Below, in pieces: positions 6,032-26,610 of a stretch of DNA of 64,000 nucleotides. This DNA is from Pseudomonas saudimassiliensis (lineage in GTDB: Bacteria; Pseudomonadota; Gammaproteobacteria; Pseudomonadales; Pseudomonadaceae). The position numbers were made by a program, and so were the translations under genes. A model generated the notes under the pieces. That model had not been told where the DNA came from. It did no database searches and worked only from the letters and a program-made list of their open reading frames with translations. Numbering within the stretch: the stretch's first letter is position 1; every line of letters starts with the position of its first letter. The DNA is taken from the NCBI RefSeq assembly GCF_000939975.1, contig NZ_LK391969.1, positions 2,115,953-2,179,952 on the forward strand. Direction: 5' to 3'.

Positions 6032-7337
6032 AACGCATCTGCCCCAGCTCGTCGCCCTGCTGGCTCTCGCCAAACAGCGCGGTCAGGCGTGGACGCAGGT
6101 AGTCCTGGATGGCCTGCTCCGGCACCTGGTCGATCAGCTCGTTGATGAAGCCGAAGCTGAGCATGCGGATCGCATCGGCACGGGTCACGCCACGGCTCTG
6201 CAGATAGAACACCGAGGTGTCATCCAGCTGGGCAATGGTCGCGCCGTGGGCGCAGCGCACGTCGTCGGCGTAGATCTCCAGTTCCGGCTTGGTGTTGATC
6301 TCGGCAGTGGGCGATGTCAGCAGATTCTTGTTGCTGAGCTCGGCCAGGGTCTTCTGGGCATCCTGGTGAATGTGGATGCGCCCATTGAACACAGCCTTGG
6401 CCGAATCGCCGATGATGCCGCGGAACACCTCGTCGGTGGTGCAGTTGGGTACCCGGTGCTCCACGTTGGTGTGGTAGTCGATCAGCTGCTTGTTACGCGG
6501 CAGATAGACCCCGTTGAGCCCCAGGTGCGCGCCTTCGCCACGGTGGTTCACGTGGTAGTCGATACGCTTGAGCCGGCTGCCCTGGGCCAGGGTGAAGCCG
6601 AGGAAGCGCGCGTCCCGATGCAGGTCGATGTGCACCCCACCCACGTGCAACAGGTCTTCCTGCTCGAGGTTGATGCGGTAGTGCTGGACCTGCGCGTTGT
6701 TGCCCACGATCACTTCGGTGTGGCTGTTGACGAACAGGTTCTGCTTTTCGCTGCCGGACACGTAATGTTCAATCAGCTCGGCCTCGCTGTTGTCCTCCAG
6801 CACCACCAGTACCCGCTGGCTGCTGACCGCCGGCTGCGCTTCCGGAGTGGCAACGTTGAGTATATACACCGGCCTTTCCAGCCGCGCGCCACGGGGCACG
6901 TGCAGCAGGATGCCGTCAGCGGCCCAGGCGTCGCTCAGGGCGACGAACAGGTGCTCGGAGGTATTGGCAACCGTACCCAGGTGCTGGCGGATCAGCGCCT
7001 GCTGGCTAGCGTCCGCCTCGCTGAAACGCACTACCCCGGCGGGCAGTTCACTGGAATGCTCGCGGGAAAAATGCCCGTTGATGAAGACCAGGCGGGTGGC
7101 GTCCAGGGCAATCGGATCGATCGCCTGCTGCCAGGCGCAGTCGTCGACGCGGGCCCACTGGGCCGGGGTATCAGTCTGCAGCGGGTTCAGCGAGGTATAT
7201 TTCCATGCCTCGGTCTTGCGTGTCGGCCATTTGGCGGTCGACCAGACGTCAGTACCCCGCGCGCGCAGTTCAGTCAGCCACTCAGGGCTATGCTGCTCTG
7301 CGGCCAGCGTCAGGGCCTGTTGTTGAAAGTCGGACAT
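6024..7337 (-). CDS. sufD: Fe-S scaffold component SufD
   Basis: This 437-residue protein is the SufD partner of the SufBC2D scaffold. The C-terminal right-handed beta-helix core is clear: GRIHIHQDAQKT, SNKNLLTSPTAEINTKPELE, then DVRCAHGATIAQLDD containing the conserved histidine used for cluster assembly, and FYLQSRGV. It lies two bases after sufC and overlaps sufS by eight bases. SufD pairs with SufB and binds SufC ATPase. Length and motifs are normal. Confidence 0.95.
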   Translation of the reverse strand: MSDFQQQALTLAAEQHSPEWLTELRARGTDVWSTAKWPTRKTEAWKYTSLNPLQTDTPAQWARVDDCAWQQAIDPIALDATRLVFINGHFSREHSSELPAGVVRFSEADASQQALIRQHLGTVANTSEHLFVALSDAWAADGILLHVPRGARLERPVYILNVATPEAQPAVSSQRVLVVLEDNSEAELIEHYVSGSEKQNLFVNSHTEVIVGNNAQVQHYRINLEQEDLLHVGGVHIDLHRDARFLGFTLAQGSRLKRIDYHVNHRGEGAHLGLNGVYLPRNKQLIDYHTNVEHRVPNCTTDEVFRGIIGDSAKAVFNGRIHIHQDAQKTLAELSNKNLLTSPTAEINTKPELEIYADDVRCAHGATIAQLDDTSVFYLQSRGVTRADAIRMLSFGFINELIDQVPEQAIQDYLRPRLTALFGESQQGDELGQMRYE

Positions 7338-8139: not shown

Positions 8140-9576
<1,437 letters not shown>

Positions 9577-23522: not shown

Positions 23523-24248
23523 ATGCGCTATCTGTTCATATCGGATCTGCATCTGGAAGCACAACGCCCGGATATCACCCGGGCGTTTCTTCATCTTCTG
23601 CAAACCCGTGCGGTCGCCGCCGATGCCCTGTATATCCTCGGGGACTTCTTCGAAGTCTGGCTGGGCGATGATAATCCCGACCCGCTGGCCGACCAGATCA
23701 GCAGCGCCCTGCTGGCCCTGTCCCACCGGGGCGTGGCGATCTACCTGATGCACGGTAACCGCGACTTCCTCATCGGCAGGGACTTCTGCCGCCGCTCCGG
23801 CTGCACCCTGTTGAACGACCCCACGGTCATCGAGATCAATGGCGAACCGGTACTGCTCATGCACGGCGACAGCCTGTGCACCGATGATACCGATTACCTT
23901 CGCCTACGCCGCTGGCTCCGCAACCCGCTGAGCCTGTTCATCCTCCGCCACCTCCCCTTGAAAACCCGCCACCGCCTCGGCCGCAAACTGCGTAACGAAA
24001 GCCAGGAGCGCACCCGTTACAAGGCGCTGGAGATCACCGACGTCAACCACGACGAGGTACTCAAGGTAATGCGCGAGCATGGGACATCCACCCTCATCCA
24101 CGGCCACACCCACCGCCCTGCGGTGCATCAGCTGGAGGTTGATGGCAAACCCGTACAGCGGATTGTGCTGGGGGATTGGGACAGCAATGGCTGGGCGCTG
24201 GAGGTGGATGAGGACGGCTATCGGCTGGGGCGTTTCGAGTTGGGCTGA
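23523..24248 (+). CDS. lpxH: UDP-2,3-diacylglucosamine pyrophosphatase LpxH
   Basis: This 241-residue calcineurin-type phosphoesterase cleaves UDP-2,3-diacylglucosamine to lipid X in lipid A synthesis. Metal-binding motifs are in order: [39 protein letters not shown] and HGHTHRPA. The length matches E. coli LpxH (240). It lies nine bases after ppiB. It is a peripheral inner-membrane enzyme essential in most Gram-negatives. All metal ligands appear intact. Confidence 0.97.
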
Positions 24249-24274
24249 GCTGCCCTCTTTCCCCAAAAAACAAA

Positions 24275-24302
24275 ACCCCCAGCTCTCTCGAACCAGGGGT
24301 TT
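24275..24302 (-). terminator. Terminator downstream of the etf chimera (between lpxH and etf)
   Basis: A six-base AACCCC/GGGGTT stem is followed on the minus strand by TTTTGTTTTTT, which fits an intrinsic terminator for the minus-strand etf transcript. It also lies 26 bases after the lpxH stop. Confidence 0.55.
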
Positions 24303-24303
24303 C

Positions 24304-24327
24304 GCTTCCAGCTTCCAGCTTCCAGCT
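24304..24327. repeat. Three tandem GCTTCCA heptamers
   Basis: GCTTCCA occurs three times in direct succession, then GCTG, between the etf terminator and the etf stop codon. Such short heptamer tandems are seen in intergenic DNA of pseudomonads and related bacteria. They may expand and contract by slippage. Confidence 0.6.
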
Positions 24328-24331
24328 GCTT

Positions 24332-24637
24332 TTAAACCTTACTCGCCAACTCCGGCACCAGCTCAAACAGGTCACCCACCAGGCCATAATCCGCTACCTG
24401 GAAGATCGGGGCTTCCTCGTCCTTGTTGATGGCAACAATGACCTTGGAATCCTTCATACCTGCCAGGTGCTGGATCGCACCTTTCTCTTTCAGGCGTACG
24501 GCCTCTTCCACGGCGATTTCGCAGAAGGGGTTCATGGACATCTTGACGTTGGCGAGGTCGACACCGCTGTTGTCCGCCTTGACGCGAACCTTGACGTTGT
24601 AGTCAACGACCCGCTTAACCGCTACTAGTACCTTCAT
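24332..24637 (-). pseudogene. In-frame etfB-etfA deletion chimera (electron transfer flavoprotein remnant)
   Basis: The 101-residue product is two unrelated pieces joined. Residues 1-53 ([19 protein letters not shown] through RLKEKG) are the N-terminus of the ETF beta subunit. Residues 54-101 ([20 protein letters not shown] through the stop) are the C-terminus of the ETF alpha subunit, including part of its FAD-binding motif. Intact ETF needs about 250 residues of EtfB and 310 of EtfA, so roughly 1.4 kb is missing, with the join near 24475-24482 around a GGTG that both parents could share. The position, divergent from ETF-QO, is the normal etfBA locus of pseudomonads. The product cannot be a working ETF. 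This may be a true deletion with ETF supplied elsewhere, or an assembly collapse. Confidence 0.9.
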
Positions 24638-24945: not shown

Positions 24946-26610
24946 GTGGAACGCGAATTCATGGAATTCGATGTCGTCATCGTGGGAGCAGGCCCTGCCG
25001 GTCTGTCTGCCGCCTGCCGCATCAAACAGCAAGCAACTGACGCTGGTCAGGAGATCAGCGTCTGCGTCGTGGAAAAAGGCTCCGAAGTGGGCGCACATAT
25101 TCTGTCCGGCGCGGTGTTCGAACCCCGTGCATTGGAAGAGCTGTTTCCCGACTGGAAAGAGCTGGGCGCTCCGCTGAACACCCCGGTCAAGCGTGATGAC
25201 ATCTATATGCTGACCAGCGAAGAGAAGTCCACCAAGCTGCCTGATCTCCTCGTGCCGAAGACCATGCACAACGAAGGCAACTATATTATCTCCCTGGGTA
25301 ACCTGTGCCGCTGGCTGGCCCAGCAGGCCGAGAACCTGGGTGTCGAAGTGTATCCGGGCTTCGCTGCCCAGGAAGCGCTGATCGATGAGAACGGCATCGT
25401 TCGCGGCATCCTCACCGGCGATTTGGGTGTTGACCGCGAAGGTAACCCGAAGGAAGGCTTCTATACCCCCGGTATGGAGTTGCGCGCCAAGTACACCCTG
25501 TTCGCTGAAGGTTGCCGCGGTCACATCGGCAAGCAGCTGATCAAGCGTTACAACCTGGCGTCCGACGCGGATGCCCAGCACTACGGCATTGGCATCAAGG
25601 AAATCTGGGACGTCGATCCTGCCAAGCACGAACAAGGCCTGGTCGTGCACACCGCCGGTTGGCCGATGGATATCACCGGCAACGAAAACACCGGTGGCTC
25701 CTTCCTTTATCACATCGAGAACAACCAGGTTGTGGTGGGTCTGATCGTGGATCTGTCATACAGCAACCCGCATCTGTCGCCCTTCGACGAATTCCAGCGC
25801 TACAAGCATCACCCGGTAATCAAGCAGTACCTGGAAGGCGGCAAGCGCGTCTCCTATGGCGCCCGCGCCATCTGCAAGGGCGGTCTGAACTCCCTGCCGA
25901 AGATGGTCTTCCCCGGCGGTGCCCTGATCGGTTGCGACCTGGGCACCCTGAACTTCTCCAAGATCAAGGGCAGCCACACCGCCATGAAGTCCGGCATGCT
26001 TGCCGCCGACGCTGTGGTGGAAGCACTCAAGGCCGGCCGCGAAGGTGGTGATGAACTGACCGGCTATGTCGATGGCTTCAAGGCCAGCTGGCTGTATGAC
26101 GAGCTGTTCCGCTCGCGCAACTTCGGCCCGGCGATCCACAAATATGGTGCGCTGTTCGGCGGTGCGTTCAACTACATCGACCAGAACTGGTTCGGCGGCA
26201 AGATCCCCTTCACGCTGCATGACACCACGCCGGATCACGCCACCTTGAAGAAGGCTTCCGAAGCCAAGAAGATCGCCTATCCCAAGCCGGATGGCGTCCT
26301 CAGCTTCGACAAGCTGTCGTCGGTGTTCCTGTCCAACACCAACCACGAGGAAGACCAGCCGGTCCACCTCCGGCTCAAGGACCCGAGCATTCCGATCGAG
26401 CAGAACCTGCCGCTGTATGACGAGCCTGCGCAGCGCTATTGCCCGGCCGGCGTGTACGAGGTGGTGAGCAACGACGATGGCAGCAAGCGCTTCCAGATCA
26501 ACGCCCAGAACTGCGTACACTGCAAGACCTGCGACATCAAGGACCCGGCCCAGAACATCAACTGGGTGGCTCCGGAAGGTACTGGCGGACCGAACTATCC
26601 CAATATGTAA
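24946..26610 (+). CDS. Electron transfer flavoprotein-ubiquinone oxidoreductase
   Basis: This 554-residue monotopic membrane flavoprotein passes electrons from ETF to ubiquinone. It has an N-terminal FAD motif VVIVGAGPAGLSAACR, the central GTLNFSKIKGSHTAMKSGMLAAD region, and a C-terminal 4Fe-4S module with QRYCPAGVYEVV and NCVHCKTCDIKDP (four cysteines). The GTG start is chosen from TAGGAG nine bases before it and gives the pseudomonad-type MEREFMEFD N-terminus. The gene is intact and divergent from the etfB-etfA chimera, so its normal partner is not encoded here. A strong terminator follows. Its 4Fe-4S cluster needs the Fe-S machinery. Confidence 0.97.
   Translation: MEREFMEFDVVIVGAGPAGLSAACRIKQQATDAGQEISVCVVEKGSEVGAHILSGAVFEPRALEELFPDWKELGAPLNTPVKRDDIYMLTSEEKSTKLPDLLVPKTMHNEGNYIISLGNLCRWLAQQAENLGVEVYPGFAAQEALIDENGIVRGILTGDLGVDREGNPKEGFYTPGMELRAKYTLFAEGCRGHIGKQLIKRYNLASDADAQHYGIGIKEIWDVDPAKHEQGLVVHTAGWPMDITGNENTGGSFLYHIENNQVVVGLIVDLSYSNPHLSPFDEFQRYKHHPVIKQYLEGGKRVSYGARAICKGGLNSLPKMVFPGGALIGCDLGTLNFSKIKGSHTAMKSGMLAADAVVEALKAGREGGDELTGYVDGFKASWLYDELFRSRNFGPAIHKYGALFGGAFNYIDQNWFGGKIPFTLHDTTPDHATLKKASEAKKIAYPKPDGVLSFDKLSSVFLSNTNHEEDQPVHLRLKDPSIPIEQNLPLYDEPAQRYCPAGVYEVVSNDDGSKRFQINAQNCVHCKTCDIKDPAQNINWVAPEGTGGPNYPNM

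Follow-up and report, generated by a model that had tools for sequence, protein, structure and literature searches.

ETF carries electrons from acyl-CoA dehydrogenases to ETF-ubiquinone oxidoreductase (ETF-QO) and ubiquinone. In the window, that is, the whole stretch of 64,000 nucleotides of Pseudomonas saudimassiliensis DNA analyzed here, the ETF-QO gene stands next to a 101-codon open reading frame (24332-24637, minus strand) that starts as etfB and finishes as etfA. Does this chimera encode a miniature protein, does it record a genuine deletion, or was it created during assembly? Based on sequence comparison, we conclude that it is almost certainly an artefact of repeat collapse and not a gene. 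In a collapse of this kind, a two-copy repeat is represented only once, one copy is cut down to its ends and the flanks are misjoined.

Composition of the etfB-etfA chimera

The translated frame, ending in ELASKV and a stop codon, consists of EtfB residues 1-53 followed in frame by the C-terminus of EtfA. This composition, already recognized in the original prediction, is borne out by the translation and by NCBIfam matches: AcrB, which we take to be an EtfB-like model, matches residues 1-56, and the C-termini of EtfA-type models match residues 48-100, 51-100 and 52-100, all far below the curated cut-offs. With Pfam, the chimera obtains 14.4 bits over 25 residues against the ETF domain (PF01012), below the cut-off of 26.7, and the ETF_alpha FAD-binding domain (PF00766) was not found in it at E <= 1. 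The full EtfA encoded at the second locus described below carries both domains, unlike the chimera.

On one side, the chimera is flanked by a calcineurin-like phosphoesterase gene (23523-24248, plus strand), presumably encoding LpxH, and on the other by the ETF-QO gene (24946-26610, plus strand). The latter is intact and divergent, as had been reported from the sequence, and an acyl-CoA dehydrogenase gene does lie at the right edge, from 63810 past the window end (C1:2179762-2180208, minus strand). The same prediction estimated that about 1.4 kb was missing. Compared with a full etfBA of 1681 bp, including a 1-nt spacer, the deficit is 1375 bp. LpxH and ETF-QO lie 701 bp apart in the window, versus 2079-2576 bp in seven of the nine relatives tried, G029 and G030 being left out because LpxH is absent from the stretch compared.

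A second etfBA operon with doubled ends

The genome to which the window belongs (3.34 Mb in 3 contigs, the window lying within contig C1) is rated 100% complete. A genome-wide search for another etfB/etfA pair, proposed together with the original prediction, did retrieve one, at C1:1644565-1646554, where two adjacent ETF matches over cut-off occupy C1:1644784-1645957. We refer to this second operon, which adjoins genes for two acyl-CoA dehydrogenases and for a U32 peptidase, as locus D, and to the site beside ETF-QO as locus Q. Locus D codes for a complete EtfA and for the whole of EtfB, the latter with 44 residues doubled as assembled: its EtfB frame has 310 residues, or 293 from the usual start, versus a normal 249. 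Three options had been put forward for the missing sequence. Loss of fatty-acid electron flow finds no support, given the coding content of locus D and 25 acyl-CoA dehydrogenase matches in the genome; the other two hold jointly, in that a second ETF is present elsewhere and there is strong evidence that the assembly collapsed.

Both ends of the operon at locus D are tandemly doubled. The etfB head is repeated at an offset of 132 bp, with 138 bp identical and a 6-bp overlap (GCGTGG) at the join, and the etfA tail at an offset of 180 bp, with 186 bp identical and a 6-bp overlap (CAGCTG). These doubled stretches contain both parts of the chimera exactly. On the etfB side, 128 bp (24480-24607, minus strand; gene nucleotides 31-158) are identical to the head that stands at positions 6596-6723 and again at 6728-6855 of the D locus sequence (L033); on the etfA side, 131 bp (24351-24481, minus strand; gene nucleotides 157-287) are identical to the tail at 8229-8359 and 8409-8539. 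The shared stretch spans 257 bp in all, and differences from locus D are confined to the first 30 and last 19 nucleotides of the chimera. Those first 30 nucleotides of etfB (24608-24637, minus strand) are of the Q type, with 77-97% identity to eight Q copies and 70-73% to nine D copies.

The join falls at 24478-24481 (minus strand; gene nucleotides 157-160), inside the 24475-24482 interval to which it had been assigned. Of the GGTG that both parents could share at this point, the two bases GG match both sides of the D copy; the complete GGTG would be common to both only on condition that etfB of the true Q copy has GGTG at the join. Direct and tandem repeat scans detected no doubled ends inside the 64,000-nt window, such scans being blind to other chimeras whose partner sits outside it.

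Similar scars at tuf and 16S

A collapsed repeat as the cause predicts like scars elsewhere, and we therefore checked further long repeats, including the gene for EF-Tu, which is expected in two copies. The sole full tuf (C1:3134600-3135778, in region C1:3134464-3135912, locus L163) has both ends doubled, at offsets of 140 and 134 bp, so that, as written, the head and the remainder of this copy stand in different frames. About 16 kb away, at C1:3151198-3151458, lies a 95-residue in-frame tuf chimera whose two parts, of 122 and 122 bp, match the full copy exactly and meet in a 3-bp overlap. Thus tuf displays both kinds of scar seen at etfBA.

At 16S, we observed truncation only. One copy is full and two are truncated, at C1:3127050-3127403 (L063) and C1:3237947-3238077 (L064), where the 16S model matches only 354 and 131 bp and the join overlaps are 3 and 6 bp. 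In contrast to etfBA and tuf, the one full rRNA operon is free of doubled ends, and each of the three 16S copies is followed by a full-length 23S. Altogether, eight joins are seen at three unrelated repeats (etfBA, tuf and 16S), each overlapping by 2-6 bp.

These observations bear directly on a genuine deletion, in which recombination at GG or GGTG would have removed one etfBA copy and left an in-frame chimera, with the other copy supplying ETF. Such an event is consistent with the second etfBA in the same genome, with the short overlap at the join and with the absence of the Q copy in one relative (G030, see below). However, it leaves unexplained the doubled head and tail at locus D, as well as the tuf scar pair and the two truncated 16S; it would require several independent matching rearrangements, and the only full tuf would, as written, be the out-of-frame one. 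We therefore regard a deletion as very unlikely.

Still harder to believe, to the point of being practically negligible, is a functional miniaturized EtfB-EtfA protein or a regulatory peptide. The original prediction had envisaged a stable short peptide on the grounds that the chimera is in frame with start and stop kept, but an in-frame join is a one-in-three chance, and the same accident recurs at tuf. The Pfam results above speak against a working protein, and the frame occurs in no other genome among the matches listed. When the chimera was used as a query, at least 55 of 58 genomes (its own included) gave a match; among the matches listed from the 57 relatives, none spans more than 61 of the 101 residues. 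Among 80 loci listed from 585 relatives, from which near kin are possibly absent, none spans more than 65.

We also looked up natural EtfB-EtfA fusions in five regions, four in which a long open frame contains an EtfB match (in genomes G068, G073, G107 and G121) and one in G026; further genomes with such a match, G065 and G079 among them, lie outside those five. G073, G107 and G121 harbor ordinary separate genes with a frame extending upstream. In G068 (L171 1780-3495), a single contig with two EtfB-like heads, one copy forms a 571-codon open frame through etfB and etfA. Either the two genes are truly fused there or the etfB stop has been lost to a sequencing error; the case is irrelevant to the question of the chimera.

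etfBA and tuf in related genomes

As controls, we used the nine single-contig genomes among 36 same-genus relatives. Eight of them encode an EtfB of 249 residues and an EtfA of 309 residues at both loci, with one etfBA beside ETF-QO and the second beside acyl-CoA dehydrogenases. The comparison with close relatives suggested at the outset thus finds a full operon at the Q position in all but one case. The exception, G030, has only the copy on the acyl-CoA dehydrogenase side, which shows that the Q copy can be lost; this counts against an artefact, as does the 100% completeness rating of the P. saudimassiliensis genome. The place beside ETF-QO in G030 (L168) is occupied by sugar-nucleotide synthesis genes, rml-like by eye.

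All nine controls carry two intact tuf genes, the 18 loci being full length without stops. Tandem repeats of at least 60 bp within 400 bp were found at none of the 18 tuf loci and at 2 of the 17 etf loci; these two repeats, of 113 and 151 bp, both lie past the etfA end. What the sequences show, then, is scarring of etfBA, tuf and 16S in the P. saudimassiliensis assembly itself, and intact etfBA and tuf in relatives.

Draft genomes of the genus show their own breaks at this repeat. In at least 7 of the 27 drafts (G003, G006, G010, G013, G016, G024 and G036), an etf fragment begins no more than 8 bp from a contig start, and in the draft G026 (contig 18, L173) etfA contains a short run of N across which etfA sequence is doubled. 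Nor is a single contig proof of correct assembly, as illustrated by 16S irregularities in two single-contig genomes: in G001, only one of three 16S matches is full, the other two being partial, and G012 has just one match. The 16S region of G001 is perhaps misassembled too. Neither of these two genomes, however, shows damage at etfBA or tuf, each gene set being present in two intact copies.

A proposed model of repeat collapse

The organism most likely carries two full etfBA operons, Q beside ETF-QO and D beside acyl-CoA dehydrogenases, which are near-identical except in short stretches. An assembler, probably supplied with short reads, would have kept this repeat once, and contigs entering it from the unique flanks would have ended some 120-160 bp inside. 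When the contigs were then put in order, the only contig with the repeat would have been placed at D, where overlapping contig ends left untrimmed would have produced the doubled head and tail; at Q, the flank ends would have been joined directly, so that head plus tail became the chimera. Every join would correspond to a chance overlap of 2-6 bp. In this scheme we infer the read type, the order of the joining steps and the full-length Q locus of the strain itself.

The sizes of the scars constrain the model. The shared ends are unequal (122, 122, 128 and 131 bp) and the doubled units measure 132-180 bp, so that a single de Bruijn word size cannot account for every scar; a fixed word size, for example 127, does not fit both the 257-bp stretch of the etfB-etfA chimera and the 122 and 122 bp at tuf. 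We retain a looser version, in which untrimmed contig ends were probably joined at chance overlaps. In addition, the full rRNA operon without doubled ends and the full-length 23S indicate that the fault did not hit all long repeats alike.

The P. saudimassiliensis assembly agrees with repeat collapse in general, in that tuf and 16S were hit as well as etfBA. It differs in two respects: the scar here is an in-frame reading frame with start and stop kept, and the surplus ends at etfBA and tuf remain doubled at the other copy. The chimera most likely does nothing in the cell, because it is most likely absent from it, and the true state is likely one of two working etfBA operons.

The chimera should therefore be neither annotated nor studied as a fusion. 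It also provides a warning case, as a genome in 3 contigs that is rated 100% complete still looks wrong at three of the repeats examined (etfBA, tuf and 16S), although 23S is fine, and two of its scars pass for in-frame small genes. Such genomes could mislead anyone who counts lost genes, small proteins or copies of rRNA in them. An automatic scan could look for the scar pattern, with a shared head and tail in one place and doubled ends in the other.

Concerted evolution of the two etfBA copies

The likeness of the two etfBA copies would account for the collapse, and we analyzed it in the eight relatives that have both (L034-L049), the likeness of the middle being hidden in P. saudimassiliensis by the collapsed Q locus. 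At third codon positions, Q and D are 90.3-98.8% identical within a genome, versus 62.5-84.4% for the same locus between genomes (28 Q pairs and 36 D pairs). In a tree of these sequences, Q and D of each genome pair together in 8 of 8 cases with a support of 1.000, some deeper nodes being weakly supported. Each pair of copies differs at 3-12 positions within the initial 60 nt of etfB and at 0-55 positions in the other 1614 nt.

The flanks are conserved across the eight genomes. Q has ETF-QO as a neighbor in all eight and LpxH in seven, and D has acyl-CoA dehydrogenases in all eight and the U32 peptidase in four. The acyl-CoA dehydrogenases beside D are likely electron donors, ETF-QO beside Q being the electron acceptor. 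Shared flanks, together with the likeness of copies within each genome, suggest that the duplication is old in this genus and that its copies have been homogenized, most simply by gene conversion, we infer. We think it quite probable that two etfBA operons in conserved places, one on the ETF-QO side and one on the acyl-CoA dehydrogenase side, have been kept near-identical by gene conversion since before the split of the sampled species, with differences most concentrated in the initial 60 nt of etfB.

Published work (PMC6053082) describes concerted evolution of etfA/etfB in Burkholderiales and of tuf in groups that include Proteobacteria. The Burkholderiales case described there involves the same gene pair, duplicated, with copies alike within each genome as here; it differs in that the table given for this pair lists Burkholderiales, whereas ours is a genus of the Pseudomonas family. 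The tufA/tufB copies of Proteobacteria, homogenized by gene conversion according to the same source, are likewise collapsed in the P. saudimassiliensis assembly and, as a gene unrelated to etfBA, serve as an independent test. If gene conversion has indeed kept the two etfBA operons of this genus alike, ETF would, together with the Burkholderiales case, be a recurrent target of concerted evolution. Across the family, an EtfB-like head is present at E <= 1e-15 in 117 of 119 sampled genomes, with 1 to 9 per genome outside the genus.

Two minor features were noted along the way. A tandem repeat stands 3' of etfA in G001 (L034 5903-6329), at a place equivalent to that of a short repeated motif, resembling AGCTGGAAGC; this motif directly follows etfA at both P. 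saudimassiliensis loci (24260-24335 in the window and 8560-8620 in L033). Contig C2 of the P. saudimassiliensis assembly (L054) is a small contig of 4311 bp, whose reading frames, judged by eye, presumably encode a piece of an integron integrase, a sul1-type dihydropteroate synthase, an acetyltransferase and an IS6-type transposase.
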